IMG/VR virus record: IMGVR_UViG_3300044993_000281
Span: 1-32,423 of that record
Strand: one strand, 5' to 3'
DNA length: 32,423 nt
Source of the DNA: a virus
The notes under the pieces are model-generated. The model worked only from the letters and a program-made list of their open reading frames with translations. It did not search any database and had not been told where the DNA came from. The position numbers and the translations under genes were made by a program. Of this stretch, positions 2 through 15,140 are shown one piece after another. How positions within the stretch are numbered: position 1 is the first letter of the stretch; each line of letters starts with the position of its first letter.

Positions 2-3000
2 GACGATCCATTTACGATGGGGCACGAGTTCATACGGATGCTGACCCAAGACAAATTTTTCAATCAAGTCACGGAAAGCACGGAAATAGATGACGGGTTA
101 ATTGCCTATTTGCGCGAGTTGCTGGAGAAAATCGGTCGGCAACTTCGGAGTATGCTGGCCGATCCTGCCATAACCGATGCGGCCACACGTCAGGCTGTGC
201 GGGAAGCCGAGGGGTTGGTGGCCCGTCGCTTATCCGATCTTGGGGTAAAAAAAGAGGTTTCCGAAGGAGGACAGAAGCAGTTTAGTTCAAACAATGATTC
301 AACCAATTATCTATCGTTTGAACGGGGCACCACCTCCGCAGACAATCGAGGAGGTTTACTTGGAATTGAACGGGGAACTGGAATGGAGGAAGTTTCTCGA
401 CAAACACTTTCCGGTCGAGGAACTGCCCCTGTTTCGGTGGAAGCGGGAGAGGATGTTGCGCTTGCAGGCGAAGAGACTTCTCGCAAATTGCCCCCAGCGC
501 GTTTCTCTCAATTAGGCGATGTTGGCGTAGCCTACACGGACAACAATGACCCGGTGGAATACCGCTGGGCACTGGCGGAATTGGATGATTTGGTCATCAG
601 CAATGAAGACAGCGGGGCCATCAACCCGCGGTATCCGCAGGAATTGCAGCCACGGGACCGGAGCACGGCGGGCAGTCAAGCCCAAGTCAACGACATTGCC
701 AGGAACGCAAATTTCGACCGCCTGAGCTTTTCGGAGAGTGTTGGCAATGGGGCGCCTATTGTGGGGCCGAATGACGGTGTGGCGGAAAGCGGCAACGGGC
801 GCCTGATGGGTTTGCGCCGGGCCTACAATCTTGAACTTCCATCCATCAAAGTTTACCGGGAAAAACTGGCGGCAAACGCCGAAAAATTCGGTTTGGACGG
901 TTCCAAGGTGGCGGCGATGAAGAAACCGGTTCTGGTGCGGGTGCGCCAAACCACGCTGGATCGTCGCAAGTTTGTGGAAGTGGCCAACGTGTCGAACGTG
1001 GCTCCGATGCGGGAAATGGAGATTGCCCGGAAGGATGCGGCGAATCTTTCCCTTGGATTGTTTGAATTGTTCAATCCCGATGAGAACGGGAACATTTTAA
1101 CAGCGGGGAATCAGGATTTTATCCGGGCATTTGTCCTCAACGTGATTCCGCAAACCGAGAGGGCGGCCATTGTTGACAGCCGGGGCGGATTGTCGCAAAG
1201 CGGGCTTCGCCGGATTCGGAACGCGCTTTTTGTCTATGCCTACGGTGATTCCCCGGAGGCGATGAACGCCTTGGGCCGCATGGCCGAAGACATTGAGGCG
1301 GATGGCAGGAATATCACCAACGCACTGATTGCAGCGGCGCCCGTTTTCGCCCGCCAGAATGCCGCGATCAAAAACGGTTCCCTGCACGATGCGGGGATTA
1401 GCGGCGATCTTGTTGCTGCTGCACAAGCCCTGATGGAAATCCGTGCGCGTGGGGAACGGGTTTCTGATTATCTGCAACAAGGCCAGTTGATTGATGATGG
1501 CGTCACGCCGTTGCAACGGGAAATTTTGCAATTTCTTGACCAAAACGGGCGAAGCGCGAAGCGGATTTTGGAAACATTGCGCCGGTATGCGGTGGCTTTG
1601 GATGCGGCGGGCGACCCGCGTCAGGAACAGTTGTTGCAAATGGACGCCCCCACCAAAGAAAGCCTTTGGAATCTGGCGAAAAAGCCGAATGCTGAAGAGC
1701 CGATTTTGCAGTCTGGCAAGCGTGCGGTGGCTGCTCCGAACTGGATGCGTATTTACAACCGGCTGTTCAACATGGAACGGGCGGGGGCTCGCCTCAACGA
1801 GAGCCAGCGTTCGTTGCTGGAACGGGCAGAGCGCGAGTTGGGGCAAATCCTCATGTTTGCCGGAGAGGGATACGGTCCGGCCCCGCGTGGCGAGGGTGTT
1901 AACGTAGGAATTTTTGATGAAGGCCAGGATCAGGGCCGGTTGTTTGCCGGTCAACGTTCGGGCGAGCAGCTAGACCTTTTTGACACCCTTTCGGAATCCC
2001 AGCGCCGGGAAGTTCAGTCCCGCGAGTTGGATTTGTTCGGAAATCCGTTTACGGAATCCAAACCCACCCGTATTAGTAGTAAAAAAAGAAAGGCACCCGA
2101 TGAATCTGGACTACGACAAAGTGATGAGCTTTTTGGCCAATTCAACTTCCAAAGAGTTGAGCCAATGGAGCAAAAACTTGGACTTTTTGAAGAAGAAAAT
2201 GGTCCACGCTTACGTTCGGGATTGGGGCAATCTGGAACCGGATACACAGGAAGCACTGGAAGCAGCGACGGCGGACGGCAGTCTTTACGACCGGGCGGAA
2301 GAGAAGATTTATTACCTGATGAAACATCAGCCGGAGACATGGGAGGCGATCAAGCTGGCGGTGAACCAACTGGATCCGGACAGCGGGATCGCGGCGTTTC
2401 TGAATGGGTATTGACCCGACCACCTGCAGGATCGCCAGACCGAAACCACGTAATCCGCGAAGGCGACACACTGGCCCCGCGTGGGGACATTGCCCGCATC
2501 CGGGCCAACATTGACGCCATTCGGCTTTTACGCCGTTTGGAGGAAGAGGGGCGCAATCCCACTGTCGAGGAGAAGAAGATTCTGGCTCAATATGTTGGCT
2601 GGGGCGGCCTGCCGCAGGTGTTTGACGACGAGAAGGCAGCCGCCTTTGCAAATGACGAGCACAGAACGCGCCGAAGCACGGCGGACGTTTACGAGCGGTA
2701 TGGCCCCGCCTACTACAAGATAGTCGAGGACTACCGCAAGCAGGCCCAAGCGATTGAGAACTGGCATGAAAAGTGGGGCAAGTGGCACGCCGAACTGAAA
2801 GAACTGCTCACGCCGGAAGAATACTCTGCGGCGGCTGCCAGCACGCTCAATGCTCACTACACCAGCCCGGAGGTGATCCGGGCCATGTGGGACATGGCGC
2901 AAAGGCTGGGTTTCCGTGGTGGCTCCGTGCTTGAGCCTGCCGGTGGGGTTGGCCACTTCTTTGGTCTGATGCCGGAAGGTATTGCGGAATCCAGCCAGTT

Positions 3001-6000
3001 GAGTGCCGTCGAACTGGATAGTCTCACGGGCCGGATTCTCACCAAGCTGTATCCTGAGGCCGACGTTCAAGTGACGGGTTTTCAGGACGCAAAGATTCCT
3101 GACAATTCGGTTGATCTGGCCATTTCCAATGTGCCGTTCGCCAACATTTCCATTTTTGATCCGGAAATGGAAGCGGCGAAGGCTCCGAAATTTTCCCTGC
3201 ACAATTACTTTTTTGCCAAGGCGCTGCAAAAGGTGCGTCCGGGTGGGCTGATTGCCTTTATCACGACCAGCAACACGATGGATGCCAATGTCCGGCAACG
3301 GAAGTGGCTGGCGGAACGCAGCGAATTGATCGGAGCCATTCGCCTGCCCAATACGGCTTTCAACGAAAACGCCAACACGGAAGTCACCACGGATATTCTG
3401 TTTCTCCGCAAGCCGGACGGAACGCCGCCCGTTTTTGACCGGGAAGAATGGGCTTCGACCGCCGAAGCCAAGACCCGGAAGGGCGAGCCAATCCAGATCA
3501 ACGAATACTTTGTCCGGCACCCGGAAATGATCCTTGGGGAATTGGACAATGACGGCAAAATGTATGGCCGACCCGATGAAAAGGGTCAGATGACCGTGCA
3601 TCCATTCCAGGGGAAACCCCTTGCGGAATCGCTGTCCGAAGCTGCGGAACGCCTGCCCGCCAATGTCATTTTCACATCAGCCGAAGCCGTTCCTGAAAGA
3701 AACCAGCGGAGTCAACAAATTTGGCGTGAGACGCGCGGGAATAAAGTTGGAACTCTGAGCAAGTTGGACGACGGAAGCATTGTCATTTCCGGCGTATTCG
3801 ACCAAAATGAGGACATCCTGAAACCAAAAAACCGGAAGCTGGCCGAGGATTTCATTGCCTTGCGGGACACCCTCAATGCGCTTTACGAAAGCGAACTGAA
3901 TCCCGACGCGACCGACAGCCAGATCGAGGGGCAGCGCGAACTGCTTAACCGCCGCTACGATGCTTTTGTCCGGGATCATGGCAACCTGCATAAGTTTGTC
4001 GATTTGCTGGGCATCGACCCGGATTTTTACCGGCTGCTGGGCACGGAGATCGAGCAGAAGCCGGAAAATGCAGCGGAGTCCATCCGGGTCATTCTTTCCC
4101 GGAAAAAACGTTACCGGAAGGGCGATGTTTTCACCAAGCGGGTGCTTACCCCCCGGCGCGAGCCGGAAAAAGCGGAGACGGTGGAAGATGCCTTGGGAAT
4201 TTCGCTTGGATGGCGTGGCCGCATAGATGTTGATTTCATGGCCCGCTTGCTGAGCCGGGAACAAGCGGAGGTTGAAAACGAACTTCTGGTTGGAGGCATG
4301 GCTTTCCGCAACCCGGAGAGCGGACTGTTGGAAACCCGCGAAGAATACCTGAGCGGGAACGTGCGAAAGAAGCTTCGCGTGGCGGAGATTAAGGCGGCGG
4401 AAGACCCGGCCTATGGTCCGAATGTGGAGGCATTGCAACGGGTGCAGCCGGAAGACGTGAAGATTGCGGACATCAAGATGAAGTTGGGAAGCGCATGGAT
4501 TCCTGCCGATGTTGTGCAAAGGTTCGCCCGTCAGATTTTTGATTCCGAGGCCGTGGATGTGATCTACCACCCCGGACGCGGGGAAATGATCGAAGATTCT
4601 TGGGAAATCCGATACGGCGGAAAGGGGACGGCGGCCACTGGAAATCTTACGGCTGCCATGTCGCAGATTTACGGCACCAATCGCATGTCCGGGCTGGCCC
4701 TTTTGGAAAAAGCGTTGAACCTGCAACAGCCGGAAATTTACGACACCAATAATGACGGAAAGACCCGGATATTCAATCCGACTGCGACCACCCAGGCAAA
4801 GGTGGCGATGCAAAAAATCAAAGATGCTTTCGATCAGTGGGTGCAGCGGAATCCCGATGTGCAGGAGGAATTGGCGAAGGTTTACAACGAGGTCAACAAC
4901 TCCCATGTGCTTCGGCAGTATGACGGGCAATTCCTGCAATTCCCTTGGATGGCCGCGGGCTTTGATCTTTTTTCCGAAAAGAAAAACGTGGTTTGGCGGG
5001 CGATTCAGGATGGGCGAATGTTGATTGCGCACGGCGTGGGTGGTGGCAAGACCATCATTGGCACGTCGATTGCAATGGAACTCAAGAGGCTGGGACAGGC
5101 TCGGAAGCCGCTGATTGTCGTCCACAATGCCACGCTGGAACAGTTTGCCGGAACGATCAACGCAATGGCCCCCACCGCTCGCGTGCTTGTTGCCCGGAAA
5201 AAAGACTTGGAAGGGAAGAAGCGCAAAGAGTTCATGGCCAAAGTCGCGGCGGGGGATTGGGATGCCGTGGTAATGGCGCATTCCAGCTTTGACATGATTC
5301 CCGATGATCCGGCTTACGAGGCCAAACTGATCAACGAGTTGCAGGAGGAATTGCGGGATGCCATCACGGAAATGGGAGGCAATCCAGACGGAGACGCCCG
5401 GAAAACCAAAGACCCCACCGTGAAGGAAATGCAAAAACAGCTTGCCCGGCTGGGAGAACGCATGAAGGAATTGCAAGACCGCAAGCGCGACGATGTGCTG
5501 AATTTCCAGGAGCTTGGCATTGATGCCCTGATTCTTGACGAGGCCCACCTTTACAAAAAAATTCCATTCGTCACAAAGTTGCGGCGCATTGCCGGGATTG
5601 ACAACGGTGCCAGCAAGCGGGGCACCGCCCTGATGACGAAGGTGCGGTTTATCCAAGAGAAAAACAAGGGCCGGAACGTGTTTACCATGACGGGAACCCC
5701 CGTCACGAACACGTTGGGCGAGTCTTGGAATATGATTCGCTTGGTGGCTCCCGATCTGCTCAAGGAATTTAATGTCGAGAACTTCGATCGCTTTGTTTCG
5801 ACCTTTGCCGACATTGTGAACAGCGCGGAACTCCGCGCCAACGGCGCTTACAAGCAAATTGATCGCTTGGCCGCCCTAGCCAACCTGCCGGAATGGAACA
5901 GGTTTTTCCGTCTCGGCGCAGACGTGAAAATGGGTGAGGACATGCAGGTGCGGGGCCGACCAGAAATCAAGGGTGGCAAGCCGGAACTCGTTGCGGTGGA

Positions 6001-9000
6001 AAGGACGCCGCAGGTCTCCAAGTTCACCGACTTCATCAAGGGAGTGATCGATTGGTATGACAACTTGGACGGCAAGCAAAAAAAAGAGTTCAGCCATCTT
6101 CCCCTTGTGACTTACAACGCCGCAAAGATGGCGGCCATTGACATCCGGCTGGTCGATCCCCAAGCCAAGGATGAGCCAGGCAGCAAGGTGAACATTGCTT
6201 TGAAAAAGGTTGTGGAACTTTACCGCCGCACCAATGATTACCTTGGCACGCAGGTTATTTTTGCCGACAGCTTCCGGCCGCTGAAAAGCACGGCGTTGGA
6301 TATAAGTGCGGCGGATTTGGAACCGGGCGAATCGCTGGATGATGATGAAAAAGCCGAGCGCGAAGCGGATGCGGCAGGAGGTTTCAATCTCTATCGGGAC
6401 ATGAAAGCCAAGCTGGTTGCTTCCGGCATCCCGGAAGCCGAGATTGCGATAATTTCCGACTACGACACCGACAAGAAAAAGGAGCGCCTTTTTGAACAAG
6501 TCAACGAAGGCCAAGTGCGCATCGTCATTGGCAGCACGCAACGGCTTGGCACCGGGGTGAACATGCAACGGCGCATGATTGCGGCACACCATCTGGACGT
6601 GCCTTGGACACCGGCGGAACTTGAACAGCGGGACGGGCGGGTTTACCGGCAAGGGAACATTCATTCCGAGCTTGGCGTGCCGGTCGAGATTTACCGTTAC
6701 GGGATGAAGGATACTCTTGACGCTGCCCTGTGGCAAAAGCTGGAAACCAAGGAACGGTTTATCAAGCAGGCATTGAGCGGGAAAATGAATTCCCGCAGCA
6801 TCGAGGATGATACCGGGCTGCTGAATTTGGCGGAACAGAAGGCTGTGCTTTCCGGCCCGCTGGGGATGCGGAAATTCGAGGCCGACCAGCGTGTGCGTGA
6901 ATTGCAAGCCGAGGAACGGGCTTGGCGCATGAGTGTGGCGGAAGCGGGCCAGAATGCGAGCAAAGCATCCAAGTGGCGGAGAATAGCCGAAGGTGGCTTG
7001 GCCAAAGCCCGGCGAACTCTGGAATCCGTAAAATCGTGGAGCGGGCCGGTTTCTTTGGAAATTGGCGGGAGGTCGGCCAAAGGTGCGGAACAAGCCACGG
7101 AATTGCTGAAAAGTGTCTTCGAGGAGCGATTGAGCCTGATCCGTTCCATTGCCAATCCAAGCACCAGCCCCCGCGCAAATTCTCCGATGGGCAAAGCATT
7201 TTTCAACGGAACCGAGATTGAATTGGGCCGCCCCTCCATCAACGAACGGCTTGGTGAAAGCAAACCGGAAAACCGCTGGCGTATAGAAGTGCCAATTCTT
7301 TTCAACGGGGAGCCCATTGGTTCGGCGCAGTCGGCTGGATGGGTTTTGCGGCGTTTGCAGGAATTTCCTGCTTCCGTTGAGGAAACCATTGTGCGCTTGC
7401 AGCGGGAAATTGATCGCTACCAGAAACAGGAAGACGCGGCTCTGAAACAAATGGAAGGGGCTTTTCCGAAACAAGCCGAGCTGGAAGCAGCCCTTCTTGA
7501 ACAGTCCGAAGTCATGCGGTTGGTGAGTGAGAAGCCCGGCGAACAAGAAAACACACTAAATGATACGAATAGTGAAACCATACCTTCCTTAGCTTCCGGC
7601 GAACGTGCTCGTGGGCAGATTGGCATAAAATCAATTGACCGGGATTCTTTGGCAGCGTATTTACAAGAAGGAGGTGCTTCCGCGCAGGAGGCAAAACAAG
7701 AAAGTGAGCGAATTTCCCGAACCTTGGAACAGTCTTCCGGAGGCCGAGTGGCCGAAGCGGGAGGCTACATACAGAGCGATCTCTTTATTGATTCGCCGAG
7801 CCAACCGGGAGGGCCGGACCAAGGCCGCTCAAAGGCTGGCAAAAAGGCTGCCCTTGCAATCAACCCCGCCGCAGAAAGTGCCTCGGCTGACCTCATAGCC
7901 GGGCTGCAAGGTGACTGGGAGGCACTGGCGCGTGAAGTGGCCGCCAAGGGCCGCGCATCCAGCATTTTTCAATCACTGGTTTCAAGAGAAATCCCCACTT
8001 GGGACGTTCGCGGGAGCCGCATCAGCTCCCCTCAAGACGTTCTAAATCTTATCGCTCCAATTCGTTCCCCGTTCTTTGAATCGCTCAAAGTGGCAATTCT
8101 GGATGGCAAAGACCGCGTTGTAGCCAGCAAAATTCTCTTTGTCGGAAGCCTCAACGAAAGTGTAGCGGACCCGAAAGCCTTGTTCGGCGAGCTGGCACTA
8201 CTTCGCGAGCAAACCGGCAAAAACTATTCGAGAATCATCTTTTCTCACAACCATCCGAGTGGAGACCCAACCCCATCTACAGCCGATAATAATCTGACTC
8301 GAAGAATTGTCGAAATTGCAAATCTCGCGAAATGGACCGTTGTTGATCACGTCATCACCAATGGAGAACAGTTTTTTTCTTTTCGCGAAGCGGGAATTAT
8401 TTATCAGCCCAACGTTGCAACAGATAGGACGGAATCTCCGACACCTCCACCAACGCCGCCATCCCAGCAGCCCTCTCAACAGAAATGGGAGGTTGTTCCC
8501 CGCAGTAAACTTCAAAGGATGGACGCATTTGAATACGCCAGGGATTTGGCCAAGCACCTCCGCAACGCAAATCCAGATGCCGCGCATATAATTTACCTGA
8601 GCACAAAATTAACTCTCATTGGCGTTGAAAGGATTGATGTAAACACGCTTGACTCGGAACATGAGCTAACCAAAACCCTCATTGCCGGAGCTGCCAGGGA
8701 AGGCGCGTATGCGTTTATTGTTGATGCGCCGTCCACCAATTCTTTTTCAGACAAAGGGCCATCTTTCCGTGATTTCGATCGAGCAAAAAGAATCAAAGAC
8801 ATTGCCAATGCAATAAATCTACAATTTTTAGACTTGTTGCATATATGGCCGGATGGAAATAGCACGAGTTATAAAGAAAAAGGCTTCGTCTTGGAGAGTC
8901 CTTCATTCATGTGGTCGGCGAGCAAAAAGCCCGGCGAACAAGAAAACACACTAAATGATACGAATAGTGAAACCATACCTTCCTTAGCTTCTGGCGAACG

Positions 9001-12000
9001 TGCTCGTGGGCAACTCATGTTTGACTTTGGACTTTATCGCAATCCGGGCGAGTTTGATTTCACCGACCGGGGCAAGGCACCCGGTGATTTGGTGAAAGAA
9101 AACATGGGTTTGGCGACCGCCATTGCCAATGATTTTTCGAACATTTCAGGCGTGGAGAAGGATGATGTGATCCAACAGGCGCGGGTTGCGTTGGTCAAGG
9201 CTGCAAAAGCCTACGATCCGTCCAGGGGTGTTCGGTTTGGGGTTTATGCGGGCCGGGCCATAAGGAATGAATTGTCTTCTCTTTACGGAAAACAGAGTCG
9301 GAGAACATCGCTTGAAGGCGATTCTCTGGATCGTCCGTTGGAAAATGCACCCGGTGAAACTGTCATGGATACCATTGCCGGGGAAAATGCCTGGAACGTG
9401 ATTGCCCCGGTGGAGCGCAATGAAACCAGAGACATCCTGAAAGGTTTATTGGCAAAGCTTCCAGAGCGGCCTCGCGCCATTGTCGAAGGATTCATGGCCG
9501 GGGAGAGCGGCGAGGAAATTGCGGCCCGGATGGGAATAACCCGGCAGGCGGTCAACGCGAGCTTGCAGGGAGCGTTGGCCGTTATGCGCCAGCGTTTGCG
9601 GGAACGGGGATTCAAGGGACAGGAAGATGGAGTGCTTTTTTCCGGTGAGCGTGACGATGAAAATTCGCCTGAAGACCTTTTTGCGGAACTGAACCGTGAA
9701 CTTCCCAGCCAGGAGGAAATTGACGAGCTTCGGCAAAAAGCGGCTGCGGAACCAATCGGCCAGCGCACCATCGGGCAGCCCCGAAAGGCAAACTATGCCG
9801 AAGACGACGCGACGCGGGTGGAAATCAACGTGGTTCAGCAAATGCGGGAAGAGGCCCGCAAGCGTGAGGAAGAAAGCGCGTGGATTGCGGAGGCTCGGAA
9901 GCGAATCGAAACCAACCGGGATTTGGCCAAGAAGGAAATTTTGCAGAAGGCCATGAACCCGGCCAAGTTTGGCACGTTTACGGCGGTGGACGTGAAAACA
10001 GCTCAGTTGCTTGTGCCGGAACTCATGCGGGAAGCCTACCGATCCGGTGACAAAACCAAGCAACGCGAGGCGTTTGCTTTGGCGTGGGCCTACGATGCTG
10101 GGGGGAGCGACCAAGCACGCGCCTTTGCTGCCCGGCGTGATCCGTTCAAGACCCCAGCCGAACGCCACATGGAATTTTTGACCAAGATGATTTCCACACC
10201 CACGGCGGAGCAACGGAAGTGGATTGCCCAAGCCGCCACGCAGGAAGAGAAAGCGCAGAGGCTGGAACAGGCCCAAAACGAACGGCTGGCGAAGATCGAG
10301 AAAGCGCTGGCCGACATGGGTGTGACTCTTGAAGACATCTTCGCCGGAGAAGCCTCCGTTGTGCTCAAGAGTGCCACGTTTGTGCAAAACGCCATCAAGT
10401 CTTTTGGGAAAGAGGAAGAGCGCAAGGTGATCCGCCTGACGCTGGATGGATTTTCCGACAAGGAAATTGCCAAGAAAACCCGGCTTTCGATCAAGGATAT
10501 TCAGGCCGTGCAAGACCGCATGGACGAAATTCTGGCCAAACGATTGGGAGAGTATGCCGAGCGTGGGTTTACCGCCGCTGATCTGGAAACCCTTGACATT
10601 TCCGAACTGTTTGCCGGTGAGAAGCCGGAGGTTCGCAAGGTGGCTCTTACTCCCGATCAAAAAGCAAAAATCGTGGCGGAAATGTTGCGGAAAATCCGAC
10701 CCGACCGGGAGGTGAGGAACAGCAAAAAGCTGGTGAAGCGCCGGAAGCCCCGCCGCAAACTTGAAAACCAAGCAGGGAGCGACGCGGAACGGGAAGCGTA
10801 TGAGAACGAACAGCCGTGGGAATATGTCGGGTTTGACCCTGGGAATCAGGATCAGGTGATTCGGGTGGCCCGGCTTGTGCAGGCTGCCGACGCCAACGCC
10901 ATCGACATGTTCTACGAAGCGTGGATTAACAGCATCCTTTCCGGCCCGCAGACCCAAGTGGTCAATATCATGGGCAATGCCGCGAATGCCCTGTGGGATT
11001 TCATGGTCCAGCGCCCGATGGAGGCCGCCATCAATGCCGCCTTGGTGAAGGATGCAGACGCGGCCAGTTTTGGAGAACTGCGTTACTTATTCCGTGGTGC
11101 CATTCCGGGCATAATCAAAGGATGGCAAGCCGGAATACGGGCATGGAACGCGGAACATGACTTTTTCGAGTCTGAAAAGCTCAACCAGCAAATCGAGTTT
11201 GAGGAATTTGACAAGGCGGGTGACATCAAGGTGACAATTCCCGGAAAGACTGGACGGTTCATCCGCATTTCGGGCCGTGCGCTGATGTTCATGGACAGCT
11301 TTTTCAAATATGCCACGGGGCAGATGGAAGCTGGAGCGCAAGCTTACCGCCTAGGCAAGGCCCAAGGCTTGGAGGGGCAGGCGTTGGAGGATTTTATCCG
11401 GTCGGAAATCAACCTACCCGGCAGCATGTCGTGGCAGCGGGCCGTGGCAAAGGCTAAGGATTTGACTTTCCAGACCGCCCTGCCCAAGGATGGCATTGGC
11501 GGTGTCGTTCGCAAGATCGGGGAAATACGCCGGGGAAAATCCACGTCCATCGGCGGGCGCTTGATGGAATTGTTCCTTGGCATGACGTTCCCCTTCATCC
11601 GCACGCCTTACAACATCTTCCGAATTGGCCTCCGCAAGAGTCCGCTGGGGGCGCTGAATGTTGCCTACCATATTCGCCAAGGCTTTTATTCGATGAAGAA
11701 AGGCCGACCTTTTGTTGAGGGATATTCCAAAGCCCAGCTTGTATCTGATTTGGCGGAACAGACGCTTGCATGGGTGGGAATGGCACTTTTGTGGGGAATG
11801 GTCGAAGGTGATGGTGAGGATGATGACGATGACAAGATGATTTTGATCACGGGTTCACGGCCCTACGGGGTTGACCGACAAGGGGAAAGGGATGCGCTTA
11901 ACCGCATGTATGGCGGCCCTTATCAAATCCGCATCGGCGGGAGGAATGGCATTTATTTCAACTACGGGCGGATCGAGCCATTTGCGACCGTGCTGGGCAC

Positions 12001-12721
12001 GGTGGCGGATATGGTCCGGCTGGCCAAGAGCCGGGATGCTTCGGATGCGGGCATCAAATTGTTTGGCTACTTCATGGCCCAAGCCAACGAGAAAACCTTT
12101 TTGCAGGGCTTTTCCACCATTACGGACACCATTGACGGAGCCATGCGTGATCCGAAGTCTGTGGCCAAGGCGTGGGAACGCCAGTTCCTTTCCGGCTTGG
12201 TTCCCAATATCATCCGTCAACCTCTGCGAAATTTGGATGATTTTGTCCGGGACAGCAAATACGCCGGGTTGGATTACACCCTGTTCGCCGCGCCAAACAT
12301 GGCCGAAAAGCGGGTGAATCTTTACGGCGAAGACATGCAGAAGCAGGGCAGTGGTCTTTCCCGCCTGTTCTTTGTTTCGGGTATCAAGCCGACGGAAACC
12401 CTGAAAACAGGTGACAGGTTTCTTGTGAATTGGAACGAAAAGAACCGGGATGCAGCCTACTGGCCGGAACGCCCGAACTCGTCTTTCTACCGCTTGAAAA
12501 ATCGCTTCGGAGAGCTTGTGGAAATGACTCCTGGGCAAATTGCCACCTTGGACAAAATGGCCGGGCATGCTTTTGAGCGCAAGTTGCGGAAATGGCTGAC
12601 CCCATCCCGCGCCATGAACCCGACCGAGGCTGATTTGAAAAGGTTCAAAGAAGACCTGAGCGACGCACGGCGCGAGGCCAAAGAAACCATCGCCCGCCGC
12701 GCCCTTCTTGTGTCTCCCTGA
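2..12721 (+). CDS. Giant phage polyvalent protein (ddrB/ParB-like, N6-methylase, SNF2 helicase, RadC-like, sigma-70-like, virion C-terminus); 5' partial
   Basis: The frame is open from base 2 and the first ATG (17) has no ribosome site, so the N-terminus probably lies upstream. Residues are numbered from that ATG. Residues 160-530 are ddrB/ParB-like (NPRYPQELQPRDR at 203, then ESGNGR). Residues 780-1130 are an N6-adenine methylase (LEPAGGVG at 972, NVPF at 1038). Residues 1650-2290 are an SNF2-like helicase (GVGGGKT at 1673, DEAH at 1841, QRDGRVYRQG at 2204). Residues 2640-2795 are RadC-like (SHNHPSGD at 2743), and a weaker JAB-like copy follows to about 2960. Residues 3000-3200 resemble sigma-70 regions 2 and 4. 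From 3600 to the end the sequence looks like the C-terminus of phage DarB-like or ejection proteins, with a hydrophobic stretch near 3917 followed by an acidic run. Methylase plus helicase architecture is known from P1 DarB-type anti-restriction proteins carried in the head. The position just before the portal gene fits a virion protein. Delivery with the DNA is inferred. Confidence 0.93.
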   Translation, partial: DDPFTMGHEFIRMLTQDKFFNQVTESTEIDDGLIAYLRELLEKIGRQLRSMLADPAITDAATRQAVREAEGLVARRLSDLGVKKEVSEGGQKQFSSNNDSTNYLSFERGTTSADNRGGLLGIERGTGMEEVSRQTLSGRGTAPVSVEAGEDVALAGEETSRKLPPARFSQLGDVGVAYTDNNDPVEYRWALAELDDLVISNEDSGAINPRYPQELQPRDRSTAGSQAQVNDIARNANFDRLSFSESVGNGAPIVGPNDGVAESGNGRLMGLRRAYNLELPSIKVYREKLAANAEKFGLDGSKVAAMKKPVLVRVRQTTLDRRKFVEVANVSNVAPMREMEIARKDAANLSLGLFELFNPDENGNILTAGNQDFIRAFVLNVIPQTERAAIVDSRGGLSQSGLRRIRNALFVYAYGDSPEAMNALGRMAEDIEADGRNITNALIAAAPVFARQNAAIKNGSLHDAGISGDLVAAAQALMEIRARGERVSDYLQQGQLIDDGVTPLQREILQFLDQNGRSAKRILETLRRYAVALDAAGDPRQEQLLQMDAPTKESLWNLAKKPNAEEPILQSGKRAVAAPNWMRIYNRLFNMERAGARLNESQRSLLERAERELGQILMFAGEGYGPAPRGEGVNVGIFDEGQDQGRLFAGQRSGEQLDLFDTLSESQRREVQSRELDLFGNPFTESKPTRISSKKRKAPDESGLRQSDELFGQFNFQRVEPMEQKLGLFEEENGPRLRSGLGQSGTGYTGSTGSSDGGRQSLRPGGREDLLPDETSAGDMGGDQAGGEPTGSGQRDRGVSEWVLTRPPAGSPDRNHVIREGDTLAPRGDIARIRANIDAIRLLRRLEEEGRNPTVEEKKILAQYVGWGGLPQVFDDEKAAAFANDEHRTRRSTADVYERYGPAYYKIVEDYRKQAQAIENWHEKWGKWHAELKELLTPEEYSAAAASTLNAHYTSPEVIRAMWDMAQRLGFRGGSVLEPAGGVGHFFGLMPEGIAESSQLSAVELDSLTGRILTKLYPEADVQVTGFQDAKIPDNSVDLAISNVPFANISIFDPEMEAAKAPKFSLHNYFFAKALQKVRPGGLIAFITTSNTMDANVRQRKWLAERSELIGAIRLPNTAFNENANTEVTTDILFLRKPDGTPPVFDREEWASTAEAKTRKGEPIQINEYFVRHPEMILGELDNDGKMYGRPDEKGQMTVHPFQGKPLAESLSEAAERLPANVIFTSAEAVPERNQRSQQIWRETRGNKVGTLSKLDDGSIVISGVFDQNEDILKPKNRKLAEDFIALRDTLNALYESELNPDATDSQIEGQRELLNRRYDAFVRDHGNLHKFVDLLGIDPDFYRLLGTEIEQKPENAAESIRVILSRKKRYRKGDVFTKRVLTPRREPEKAETVEDALGISLGWRGRIDVDFMARLLSREQAEVENELLVGGMAFRNPESGLLETREEYLSGNVRKKLRVAEIKAAEDPAYGPNVEALQRVQPEDVKIADIKMKLGSAWIPADVVQRFARQIFDSEAVDVIYHPGRGEMIEDSWEIRYGGKGTAATGNLTAAMSQIYGTNRMSGLALLEKALNLQQPEIYDTNNDGKTRIFNPTATTQAKVAMQKIKDAFDQWVQRNPDVQEELAKVYNEVNNSHVLRQYDGQFLQFPWMAAGFDLFSEKKNVVWRAIQDGRMLIAHGVGGGKTIIGTSIAMELKRLGQARKPLIVVHNATLEQFAGTINAMAPTARVLVARKKDLEGKKRKEFMAKVAAGDWDAVVMAHSSFDMIPDDPAYEAKLINELQEELRDAITEMGGNPDGDARKTKDPTVKEMQKQLARLGERMKELQDRKRDDVLNFQELGIDALILDEAHLYKKIPFVTKLRRIAGIDNGASKRGTALMTKVRFIQEKNKGRNVFTMTGTPVTNTLGESWNMIRLVAPDLLKEFNVENFDRFVSTFADIVNSAELRANGAYKQIDRLAALANLPEWNRFFRLGADVKMGEDMQVRGRPEIKGGKPELVAVERTPQVSKFTDFIKGVIDWYDNLDGKQKKEFSHLPLVTYNAAKMAAIDIRLVDPQAKDEPGSKVNIALKKVVELYRRTNDYLGTQVIFADSFRPLKSTALDISAADLEPGESLDDDEKAEREADAAGGFNLYRDMKAKLVASGIPEAEIAIISDYDTDKKKERLFEQVNEGQVRIVIGSTQRLGTGVNMQRRMIAAHHLDVPWTPAELEQRDGRVYRQGNIHSELGVPVEIYRYGMKDTLDAALWQKLETKERFIKQALSGKMNSRSIEDDTGLLNLAEQKAVLSGPLGMRKFEADQRVRELQAEERAWRMSVAEAGQNASKASKWRRIAEGGLAKARRTLESVKSWSGPVSLEIGGRSAKGAEQATELLKSVFEERLSLIRSIANPSTSPRANSPMGKAFFNGTEIELGRPSINERLGESKPENRWRIEVPILFNGEPIGSAQSAGWVLRRLQEFPASVEETIVRLQREIDRYQKQEDAALKQMEGAFPKQAELEAALLEQSEVMRLVSEKPGEQENTLNDTNSETIPSLASGERARGQIGIKSIDRDSLAAYLQEGGASAQEAKQESERISRTLEQSSGGRVAEAGGYIQSDLFIDSPSQPGGPDQGRSKAGKKAALAINPAAESASADLIAGLQGDWEALAREVAAKGRASSIFQSLVSREIPTWDVRGSRISSPQDVLNLIAPIRSPFFESLKVAILDGKDRVVASKILFVGSLNESVADPKALFGELALLREQTGKNYSRIIFSHNHPSGDPTPSTADNNLTRRIVEIANLAKWTVVDHVITNGEQFFSFREAGIIYQPNVATDRTESPTPPPTPPSQQPSQQKWEVVPRSKLQRMDAFEYARDLAKHLRNANPDAAHIIYLSTKLTLIGVERIDVNTLDSEHELTKTLIAGAAREGAYAFIVDAPSTNSFSDKGPSFRDFDRAKRIKDIANAINLQFLDLLHIWPDGNSTSYKEKGFVLESPSFMWSASKKPGEQENTLNDTNSETIPSLASGERARGQLMFDFGLYRNPGEFDFTDRGKAPGDLVKENMGLATAIANDFSNISGVEKDDVIQQARVALVKAAKAYDPSRGVRFGVYAGRAIRNELSSLYGKQSRRTSLEGDSLDRPLENAPGETVMDTIAGENAWNVIAPVERNETRDILKGLLAKLPERPRAIVEGFMAGESGEEIAARMGITRQAVNASLQGALAVMRQRLRERGFKGQEDGVLFSGERDDENSPEDLFAELNRELPSQEEIDELRQKAAAEPIGQRTIGQPRKANYAEDDATRVEINVVQQMREEARKREEESAWIAEARKRIETNRDLAKKEILQKAMNPAKFGTFTAVDVKTAQLLVPELMREAYRSGDKTKQREAFALAWAYDAGGSDQARAFAARRDPFKTPAERHMEFLTKMISTPTAEQRKWIAQAATQEEKAQRLEQAQNERLAKIEKALADMGVTLEDIFAGEASVVLKSATFVQNAIKSFGKEEERKVIRLTLDGFSDKEIAKKTRLSIKDIQAVQDRMDEILAKRLGEYAERGFTAADLETLDISELFAGEKPEVRKVALTPDQKAKIVAEMLRKIRPDREVRNSKKLVKRRKPRRKLENQAGSDAEREAYENEQPWEYVGFDPGNQDQVIRVARLVQAADANAIDMFYEAWINSILSGPQTQVVNIMGNAANALWDFMVQRPMEAAINAALVKDADAASFGELRYLFRGAIPGIIKGWQAGIRAWNAEHDFFESEKLNQQIEFEEFDKAGDIKVTIPGKTGRFIRISGRALMFMDSFFKYATGQMEAGAQAYRLGKAQGLEGQALEDFIRSEINLPGSMSWQRAVAKAKDLTFQTALPKDGIGGVVRKIGEIRRGKSTSIGGRLMELFLGMTFPFIRTPYNIFRIGLRKSPLGALNVAYHIRQGFYSMKKGRPFVEGYSKAQLVSDLAEQTLAWVGMALLWGMVEGDGEDDDDDKMILITGSRPYGVDRQGERDALNRMYGGPYQIRIGGRNGIYFNYGRIEPFATVLGTVADMVRLAKSRDASDAGIKLFGYFMAQANEKTFLQGFSTITDTIDGAMRDPKSVAKAWERQFLSGLVPNIIRQPLRNLDDFVRDSKYAGLDYTLFAAPNMAEKRVNLYGEDMQKQGSGLSRLFFVSGIKPTETLKTGDRFLVNWNEKNRDAAYWPERPNSSFYRLKNRFGELVEMTPGQIATLDKMAGHAFERKLRKWLTPSRAMNPTEADLKRFKEDLSDARREAKETIARRALLVSP
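294..515 (+). CDS. Candidate overprinted small gene, 73 aa
   Basis: This ORF lies in the +1 frame relative to the giant gene, over a linker whose main-frame translation is Gly/Ser/Glu-rich and low in complexity. The overprinted product has balanced composition and looks like a real helical protein (for example TIEEVYLELNGELEWRKFL), with codons similar to neighbouring genes. It stops just where the main frame becomes ordered again, before the ddrB/ParB-like domain. A GGAGG lies at 266-270, but 23 bases upstream of the ATG, which is far for a ribosome site. I recognise no family. It could be a functional nested gene, a relic of a small gene absorbed when two larger genes fused, or chance. Confidence 0.4.
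   Translation: MIQPIIYRLNGAPPPQTIEEVYLELNGELEWRKFLDKHFPVEELPLFRWKRERMLRLQAKRLLANCPQRVSLN
2100..2414 (+). CDS. Candidate overprinted gene, 104 aa, in the linker before the methylase domain
   Basis: The ATG at 2100 follows an AAAGG stretch about nine bases upstream, and the ORF runs 104 codons in the +1 frame of the giant gene. Its translation is well mixed and predicted helical: MNLDYDKVMSFLANSTSKEL at the start, DWGNLEPDTQEALEAATADG in the middle, IAAFLNGY at the end. Over the same bases the main frame is a repetitive Gly/Ser/Thr/Asp linker. This is the pattern expected when the +1 frame is the older or more constrained coding frame. No family is recognised. It may be an expressed nested gene or the remnant of a small gene between the ParB-like and methylase genes before they fused. 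Confidence 0.5.
   Translation: MNLDYDKVMSFLANSTSKELSQWSKNLDFLKKKMVHAYVRDWGNLEPDTQEALEAATADGSLYDRAEEKIYYLMKHQPETWEAIKLAVNQLDPDSGIAAFLNGY
7532..7617 (+). repeat. 86-bp direct repeat, copy 1
   Basis: This copy matches 8927-9012 with one mismatch in 86 bases (C at 7597, T at 8992). The offset is 1,395 bases, exactly 465 codons, so both copies are read in the same frame and give the same peptide from KPGEQENTLNDTNSET to SGERARGQ. The core is AT-rich, with ATA, TTA and CTA codons that look uncommon in the flanking sequence. Within the repeat the 9-mer CCGGCGAAC occurs at 7536 and again at 7596. The copy lies at the junction between the helicase part and the RadC-like cassette. Confidence 0.97.
7618..8926 (+). 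other. RadC-like (JAB/MPN) cassette within the giant gene, between direct repeats
   Basis: The segment between the two 86-bp repeats encodes a RadC-like fold: LFVGSLNESVADPKALF, then SHNHPSGDPTPS (residue 2743 onward), then VVDHVITNGEQFFSF. The His-x-His-Pro-Ser-Gly and downstream Asp fit the JAMM metal site of RadC/JAB proteins. After a proline-rich spacer (about 8430-8470) comes a second domain of about 130 residues ending in LLHIWPDGNSTSYKEKGFVL, which looks like a divergent copy of the same fold with its metal site altered. The stretch is visibly more AT-rich than its flanks. In-frame repeats at both ends suggest that the block was gained, or can be lost, as a unit by recombination. Confidence 0.75.
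7704..7898 (+). CDS. Candidate overprinted small gene, 64 aa, in the linker before the RadC-like domain
   Basis: A GTG at 7704 follows AGGAGG at 7686-7691. The 64-codon ORF is again in the +1 frame of the giant gene and covers a main-frame linker rich in Gly, Ser, Pro and Ala. Its product is basic and helical-looking, starting MSEFPEPWNSLPEAEWPKRE and continuing with ISLLIRRANREGRTKAAQRL. It is the third such ORF in the same relative frame, and all three sit at domain junctions. No family is recognised. The evidence is weaker than for 2100-2414, because the start codon is GTG and the spacing to the ribosome site is 12 bases. Confidence 0.33.
   Translation: MSEFPEPWNSLPEAEWPKREATYRAISLLIRRANREGRTKAAQRLAKRLPLQSTPPQKVPRLTS
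8927..9012 (+). repeat. 86-bp direct repeat, copy 2
   Basis: This copy is identical to 7532-7617 except at 8992. It lies directly before the sigma-70-like domain, which starts at about 9014. Recombination between the copies would remove exactly 465 codons and keep the giant frame open, joining the helicase part to the sigma-like part. Confidence 0.97.
9014..9640 (+). other. Sigma-70-like domain (regions 2 and 4) within the giant protein
   Basis: Residues 3023-3087 read like sigma region 2: DLVKENMGLATAIANDF, then DDVIQQARVALVKAAKAYDP, then RGVRFGVYAGRAIRNEL, matching the usual alternation of DLxQEGxxGLxxAxxxFDP and FxxYAxxxIRxxI motifs. Residues 3140-3196 read like region 4: LLAKLPERPRAIVEGFMAGE, then EEIAARMGITRQAVNASLQG, a helix-turn-helix. 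The two are joined by about 50 residues, the spacing of compact group 3/4 sigma factors. Finding a sigma-like module fused into a DNA-modifying, probably virion-carried protein is unusual. Whether it binds core RNA polymerase is inference. Confidence 0.75.
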
Positions 12722-12937: not shown

Positions 12938-15140
12938 AAACGACCAGTTGACGAATTTCGTCAAGCAAATACAGGACATTGTTCCCGTGCCGGATTTCGG
13001 CGCGGACGGACAAGACCTGCCGCGGATTCCCTTTCCAACATCTTACCTTCTGTCAGGCCAGCAGGAAAAAGACCTGATCGAGCACGCTTTGCGCCGCCTT
13101 CGGGAACTTGAAGATGAGTTGGGTCGTTCTTGCACGGGGGATTCCAATTGGTATGAGAGCATTGACTATTCGGAACTCGGACGGCGCTCTTTTTTGGGAA
13201 AGCGGCAGCTTTACGAGATGCTTTACCACAATCAGGTGGACTGGCGGCCACACTTGCTGGGGGGCATTTTCAACGACAGCAATTTGATTGTGCCGCTGTC
13301 CCGCCGCATTGTGCGGCAGATGGTTGCACGGGCGAACAATTATTTTTTTGCGACCGACCCGTGGTTTGCGGTCTATCCGGTAGGCGTGGCCGACCGCGAG
13401 TTGGCGAGCGACATTGAGCGTTACACCCGGTTCAAATTTGATCAAAGCCGCCAGAAACATGTGCTTGAATTGGCGGTGGAACTAGCCTTTGTGCGGGGCG
13501 AAGCCGTGGTGAAGACCACCTACGAGTCTAGGGAACAGCTTTACCAAGAACAGGCATCTGTGCTGGTGGACGAACAAGGGGCGGATATTCTGGATGCTAG
13601 CGGGGATTACATTGTCGAAACCGATCTGTGGGTGGCGGAAACGGAAACGGAAATCAACCCACAGACTGGCCAGCCCGGCGCCCCGCTTCCAACCGGGCGC
13701 ATGGTTCTCAAGCGCGATGGGGTGACGCCAAAACCTGCCAAGATGATTTTTCAATCCAAGCTCATCACCCGAAAGATCACCCATTTCAAGGGGGCGGAGT
13801 CGGCCATTGTTTTTTACAAGGATTTTCTCTGTCCGCTGAATGCGCCCAGCGTTCAGGATGCGGATTGCATTGTCCACCTTTACGACATGCCGGTGATGCG
13901 CTTGGCGGACATGTATCAGCGCAAGGCGATGCTGGACATGAGCAACGAGGAATCCATGAGAGCCACCCAGCGGGCGGTGGAATTGATCCGCAACATGGCT
14001 TTCGAGAGTGGTCGGCCCAAAGCGTTCAAAAATCAAAACCGCCCGGAACTTGGCGAGGATACGGGCACGACAGAGCGGACGGAACCGGTGGTTGAAATCG
14101 CGGAGTTTCATTTGCGCTACGACGCCAACGGCGACGGCATCATGGAAGACATCATGCTGGTCATCGACCGAAAGAATCAGGTGCCGATTTTCTACGACTA
14201 CGAAGCGAACGTGACGCCGGACGGCCTGCGTCCCTTCGATGTGGTGAGGATCAACGAAGTGGATGGACGCTGGCACGGGATCGGGGCGATGGAAATGTTT
14301 GAGTCTTCGCAGGAAATCGTTGATCTGTTGGTCAATCGCTGGAATTTCAGCCAGAGTCGCGCGGCGCGGGTTGATTTGTGGAGTCCGCACAACACGGTTG
14401 AGGGCGATTCCAACAAGAACCTGCAACTGAATTGGGGCAGAACTTACACGCCAAAGCCGGGAAAGACGGCGAAAGATATTTTGGAATTTGTCACGCTCCC
14501 GGACGTGAAGCACGAGGCACTGAAAAACATGTTCGAGTTTTTCATGCAGATGGCGACGAACGAAAGCGGCGTGGCCAACGCGAACGATGCACGAGCGGTG
14601 GGCTTGGATACCGCCGAATTAGCGACCGGCGTGCGGAATATCGAAAAGAGCGGGCAGGAGATGTTTTCTCTTTATCTCTCCCACTTGGAACCGGGATTGC
14701 AGAGCATCATTCAGCGTGCGATGGGGCTGATTTTTGCCAACTTGGATCAGGAGGAAGTGTTCGTATTTTTTGAGGGTGACAAGCAATCCTTCGGCATGAT
14801 CCGGCCTGAAGATGTGCAGGATTTGGAATTGAATGTTTCCCTGCTTTTGACCCGCTACCGTGGCGAACAGCTTTTGCAGAGTTCCATGCAGGCCGCCAAT
14901 CTGGTGACGCAGTTTTATTCCCACCTGCCGGAAATTCAGGTGCGGGTGGCACCGCTTTACCGGGACATGCTCAAGGCGCTGCAAATCAATTTTGCTGACG
15001 AAATCATTGTGCCGCTTGCTGCCCCGCCGATGGGGACAGGGCCATCGGGAACTGCACCGGGCACCCCCAAGGTGAATCCTGAGGAGGCCGTGCAAGCCGT
15101 CCAGCCCAAACCGCCGGGGCAGAGCCAGCCGAACTTCTAA
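12924..15140 (+). CDS. Portal protein (podovirus type)
   Basis: A 738-residue protein that forms the dodecameric DNA-entry vertex of the head. It starts at a GTG preceded by GAGGAGG. It has the features of large podovirus portals: an N-terminal helical region with IVRQMVARANNYFFATDPWF, a central acidic/hydrophobic part with EIAEFHLRYDANGDGIMEDI, then ESSQEIVDLLVNRWNFSQSR, and a Pro/Gln/Gly-rich flexible tail (GTGPSGTAPGTPKVNPEE). Length and gene order (portal, then scaffold-like protein, then capsid protein) support the call. No terminase is seen in the window. The assignment rests on overall resemblance by eye, not on a single catalytic motif. Confidence 0.85.
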   Translation: MNSPENDQLTNFVKQIQDIVPVPDFGADGQDLPRIPFPTSYLLSGQQEKDLIEHALRRLRELEDELGRSCTGDSNWYESIDYSELGRRSFLGKRQLYEMLYHNQVDWRPHLLGGIFNDSNLIVPLSRRIVRQMVARANNYFFATDPWFAVYPVGVADRELASDIERYTRFKFDQSRQKHVLELAVELAFVRGEAVVKTTYESREQLYQEQASVLVDEQGADILDASGDYIVETDLWVAETETEINPQTGQPGAPLPTGRMVLKRDGVTPKPAKMIFQSKLITRKITHFKGAESAIVFYKDFLCPLNAPSVQDADCIVHLYDMPVMRLADMYQRKAMLDMSNEESMRATQRAVELIRNMAFESGRPKAFKNQNRPELGEDTGTTERTEPVVEIAEFHLRYDANGDGIMEDIMLVIDRKNQVPIFYDYEANVTPDGLRPFDVVRINEVDGRWHGIGAMEMFESSQEIVDLLVNRWNFSQSRAARVDLWSPHNTVEGDSNKNLQLNWGRTYTPKPGKTAKDILEFVTLPDVKHEALKNMFEFFMQMATNESGVANANDARAVGLDTAELATGVRNIEKSGQEMFSLYLSHLEPGLQSIIQRAMGLIFANLDQEEVFVFFEGDKQSFGMIRPEDVQDLELNVSLLLTRYRGEQLLQSSMQAANLVTQFYSHLPEIQVRVAPLYRDMLKALQINFADEIIVPLAAPPMGTGPSGTAPGTPKVNPEEAVQAVQPKPPGQSQPNF

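Follow-up and report, generated by a model that had tools for sequence, protein, structure and literature searches.

A small helical-protein gene probably nested, out of frame, in a linker of a giant DarB-like polyvalent phage gene

Is a 104-codon ORF that lies within a much longer gene, in another frame, itself a gene and, if so, how did one stretch of DNA come to be read twice? The question is raised by the stretch of viral DNA analyzed here in full, which we call the window (32 kb; positions 1 to 32,423 of IMG/VR record IMGVR_UViG_3300044993_000281). In prokaryotes, long overlaps on one strand are considered rare, and annotations seldom record them. The window carries the 3′ part of a giant DarB-like gene, followed by genes matching portal, major head, tail and Sak4-like families. 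The giant's product matches phrog_10089 (E value 0) and contains ddrB-ParB, methylase, SNF2-like helicase, RadC and sigma-70 domains (Pfam: ddrB-ParB, RadC, SNF2, sigma70), a combination of methylase, helicase and defence-related domains that identifies it as a DarB-like polyvalent protein. Its likeness to the DarB-like/PLxRFG polyvalent proteins (PMC5512222) lies in the giant itself and in its ParB, methylase, helicase and RadC domains; a term search of that paper for TnpV, overlap or overprint found none of them. The features considered are as follows.

2-12721, plus strand: giant DarB-like/PLxRFG polyvalent gene, 4239 codons, 5′ end cut by the contig
294-515, plus strand: second candidate nested ORF, 73 aa, 5′ of the ddrB-ParB domain; codon usage over 272-511 favors the +1 frame
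2072-2491, plus strand: linker of the giant with codon usage fitting the +1 frame (window-trained codon-usage model)
2085-2093, plus strand: purine stretch AAAGAAAGG, presumed Shine-Dalgarno (SD) site, 6 nt 5′ of the ATG
2100-2414, plus strand: probable nested small gene, protein P0001, 104 aa, all-helical, ATG start, +1 relative to the giant frame
2480-4000, plus strand: start of the conserved methylase-helicase module
7635-7898, plus strand: third candidate nested ORF, 3′ of the helicase part; codon usage over 7562-7771 favors the +1 frame

A preliminary description of the window, made from its letters alone, had pointed to the ORF at 2100-2414. Each element that it named was found in place: an ATG-initiated ORF of 104 codons in the +1 frame over a linker of the giant, the purine stretch upstream of the ATG, and a giant frame that reads over the same bases as Gly/Ser/Thr/Gln-rich, low-complexity text. 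The ORF lies in the linker directly 5′ of the giant's methylase-helicase part. Its open +1 frame is by itself weak evidence for a gene, because when the giant's codons are resampled synonymously, that frame remains open in 51% of cases (0.3% under codon permutation). Codon usage was scored with a model trained on the window's other genes and the giant's conserved domains. At 2100-2414 the small frame scored +0.395 and the giant frame -0.080 bits/codon, and the +1 frame rises above the giant frame in just three stretches of the giant's entire length (272-511, 2072-2491 and 7562-7771). The protein was modeled by AlphaFold from a five-row alignment with a pLDDT of 82. Neither a single-sequence search of P0001 in phages and IMG/VR nor a comparison with Pfam returned a relative, and no match was found by a fold search of both models against the PDB or by a sequence search of solved structures.

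Relatives were reached through the neighboring domain: a scan of IMG/VR and phage records for the methylase module next to the linker yielded about 90 giants. Most of them carry a +1-frame ORF of 67-150 codons directly 5′ of the methylase module, and such an ORF occupies the same linker at 78 related loci (near-duplicates counted), none of which has a stop in the giant frame over it. In most relatives the nested gene ends 40-200 nt before the methylase-helicase module, and in a few up to about 640 nt before it. An iterated profile matched 72 of 21,604 six-frame ORFs at E < 1e-3, and 71 of these 72 members are in the +1 frame relative to the methylase of their own locus; the exception, L010, is instead +1 relative to the giant ORF upstream of it. 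The window forms a divergent subgroup with L013-L015 and L095, whose corresponding linker holds a homologous +1 ORF; a second divergent subgroup comprises L001, L016-L021 and L027. Homologues of the +1 protein thus exist in related phages, at the same place and in the same frame. Between the window and L013-L015, similarity is higher in the small frame (z 17-20) than in the giant frame (z 6.6-7.7). The nested gene has no annotation of its own in any of 21 phage records, and in one of them, PBC5, an upstream ORF runs into it. The phage-type small protein was not found in plasmids. In four close pairs (L074/L083, L059/L072, L062/L064 and L003/L034), DNA homology is lost over the upstream stretch of the giant and regained 11-31 nt before the start of the nested gene; since homology resumes just before its SD site, the small gene and the methylase would travel as one block.

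The two frames were compared by the substitutions of 16 close pairs; pairs and loci share ancestry, and p-values are nominal. Within the overlap, substitutions number 142/104/300 at the three codon positions of the small frame and 295/138/115 at those of the giant frame, position 3 of the small frame being position 1 of the giant frame. The adjacent methylase domain shows 386/234/1360 by giant codon position. Identity in the small frame exceeds that in the giant frame in nearly all close pairs. Judged from these substitutions, the small frame is under purifying selection, and selection in the nested frame, the mark of a functional overlapping gene, is found both in the codon-position pattern and in the identities by frame. 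The outcome that was to count against the nested gene, namely no +1 homologue and conservation solely in the giant frame, is contradicted, as homologues exist and substitutions follow the small frame. Scored locally at all loci, codon usage has a median of 0.79 in the linker and 0.02 in control blocks; we place weight on the window-trained model and the substitution tests, because the +1 frame also wins in about half of the control blocks.

Start signals were examined across the family. SD energies of -4.5 or lower precede 81% of the 78 small starts; the control values are 28% for random sites and 24% for other ATGs. Translation start signals of its own thus characterize the family as a whole and are weak in the window, where the SD energy is -3.2 kcal/mol. 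Translation of the small protein would start internally on the giant's mRNA. That the small genes are perhaps still expressed, as earlier suggested, agrees with the presence of these signals, but expression itself is something that we infer from them.

Most nested small ORFs of the related loci belong to the TnpV family (PF14198). The L030 ORF scores 28.4 bits against this profile, whose curated cut-off is 27, the L045-type ORF scores 27.0 bits, and that of phage SopranoGao falls below the cut-off (E 0.0035). The tnpV gene of Tn4451 was postulated to be an excision helper from its likeness to lambda Xis (PMC3158075). TnpV, known from Tn4451 and many gut mobile elements, is likened to the present genes by the profile matches of the relatives' nested ORFs and by the same nesting; it differs in having been described as an ordinary small transposon gene, and the window's member is too divergent for its profile. 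A direct joining of the window's subgroup to TnpV by profile-profile comparison (hhalign) was rejected, its E value of 0.49 not being significant. Among the subgroup's best non-self profile matches (E 4-18) are three nested pre-methylase ORFs, a link to TnpV that is only suggestive. P0001 is best described as a positional, TnpV-like relative, tied to TnpV by position, frame and weak profile matches. The canonical TnpV copies of gut elements are also nested, in another linker. In 13 gut-bacterial genomes (G001-G013) TnpV is very abundant, with up to 13 matches per genome, and it is absent from 14 well-known control genomes. The element L087 has, besides a nested copy, a second TnpV copy (13947-14318) whose overlap is confined to the giant's 3′ end. 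No report of TnpV nested in giant genes was found in the searchable literature.

TnpV genes also stand free in bacterial genomes. Among the TnpV copies nearest to the query in sampled gut-bacterial genomes, 49 of 80 are nested, as are 9 of 30 in a profile-ranked genomic sample, always in this frame. The TnpV tree implies about 10 switches between the nested and the free state; well-supported branches force at least 7, a count made before three mislabelled second copies were corrected. A free-standing homologue of the small protein is known for TnpV but not for the window's own divergent subgroup. Resampling of the small genes' codons predicts 4.6 giant-frame stops per nested gene, and the 126 nested genes (77 phage-type and 49 chromosomal) contain none; on this count, stops are kept out of the giant frame where it crosses the small gene. 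In free TnpV genes, the would-be giant frame holds 4.8 stops per gene, and 150 of 150 are removable synonymously; the other frame holds 9.7, and 75 of 300 are not. Because all blocking stops in the one frame can be removed in this way, a giant can read through without changing the small protein, and because this is true of just one frame, the frame of nesting is fixed.

We judge it very probable that the giant polyvalent gene harbors at 2100-2414 a genuine nested protein-coding gene. This gene would be a divergent representative of a frame-locked family whose small helical proteins are mostly TnpV-like and which occupies a linker of DarB-like giants in phages and integrative elements. A chance ORF, left open in +1 by the Gly/Ser/Thr composition of the giant's linker, would accord with the resampling given the giant's amino acids and with the general commonness of +1 ORFs in these giants (471 SD-preceded nested ORFs of at least 45 codons in +1 and 51 in +2, over all giants studied, 93 loci). 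It is hardly credible in view of a substitution pattern and identities that follow the small frame, and it is countered as well by the same-place homologues, the TnpV profile, codon usage and the SD sites. Programmed frameshifting, which instead of or besides internal initiation would yield an N-terminal-half protein ending in the small domain, has its model in Sinorhizobium phage PBC5 (L177, 11955-12309), where the giant falls into two halves: the N-terminal one (orf33, 2185 aa, phrog_938 length) runs in frame into the small domain, with a frame switch about 45 nt before the small start, and the methylase half lies in another frame. This is one older record, however, and the split could be natural or a sequencing error. 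The conserved ATG with an SD site at canonical spacing argues against frameshifting, as do the stops that interrupt many +1 frames no more than a few codons before the start, and we regard it as unlikely.

As to the origin of the overlap, de novo birth of the small gene inside a pre-existing linker is the usual origin proposed for overlapping genes (PMC8227390, PMC4683798). Here it seems quite unlikely, since the small frame and not the giant frame has genome-typical codon usage, free-standing TnpV relatives exist, and two different linkers carry the TnpV-like family. Under the reading that we prefer, the small gene would be the older text and the linker the newer reading: by fusion or by insertion, the giant would have extended its open frame over or around a pre-existing small gene, whose DNA became linker, at no cost to the small protein, each needed stop loss being synonymous. 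The preliminary description had the giant grow by fusion across small genes. The small gene is indeed read out of frame as a linker, but of the 31 TnpV genes that stand free in the first sample of genomes, none lies between separate N-terminal and methylase genes, so that insertion into the linker is as likely as fusion. On balance we lean towards the view that TnpV-like genes form a widespread class, which giant genes of phages and conjugative elements have repeatedly swallowed whole, in one favored frame, the small genes still being expressed and the nesting tying a partner protein to the giant. The small product may be an accessory partner of the linked methylase-helicase module, such as a factor in its folding, dosing or delivery; this is the part of which we are least sure, and function is a guess because no solved fold matches.

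Like the overprinted genes of viruses and E. coli, this locus would have two proteins encoded by one DNA stretch in two frames. There the nested gene is usually young, whereas here the giant's linker seems to be a newer reading of an older small gene, which phages and bacterial elements alike have conserved in one frame. Many phages and gut mobile elements would thus possess a long same-strand overlap that can be compared with free-standing relatives. The rule that all blocking stops fall at synonymous sites, in one frame only, would explain how giants read through a working gene. The overlap also offers giant multi-domain proteins a concrete way of acquiring linkers, and it points to a gene missed in sequenced isolates.

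Two further ORFs had been described as being of the same kind. The three codon-usage stretches do correspond to the three ORFs, but the third is offset and both are weaker candidates; a position at a domain junction is correct for 2100-2414 and 294-515. A +1 ORF occupies the place of 294-515 in L013-L015 and L093-L096, with weak similarity (z 2.5-3.2). As first given (7704-7898, start GTG at 7704), the third ORF scores 0.02 in +1 and 0.12 in the giant frame; counted from its first start codon it begins at 7635, and its N-terminal motif EFPEPWNSLPEAEW is common to L016 (z 8.0) and L020 (z 5.2) in the +1 frame. For the proteins of these two ORFs, P0002 and P0003, homologues are weak or motif-level at most. 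A 106-nt direct repeat in the giant (7512-7617 and 8907-9012, 93% identical) is read in both copies as linker KPGEQENTLNDTNSETIPSLASGERARG. Elsewhere in the giants, other nested ORFs in +1 also bear a small-frame substitution signature, namely in L054 (15693-15884), L066 and L068 (15675-15884), L016 (638-844) and L020 (6171-6377).
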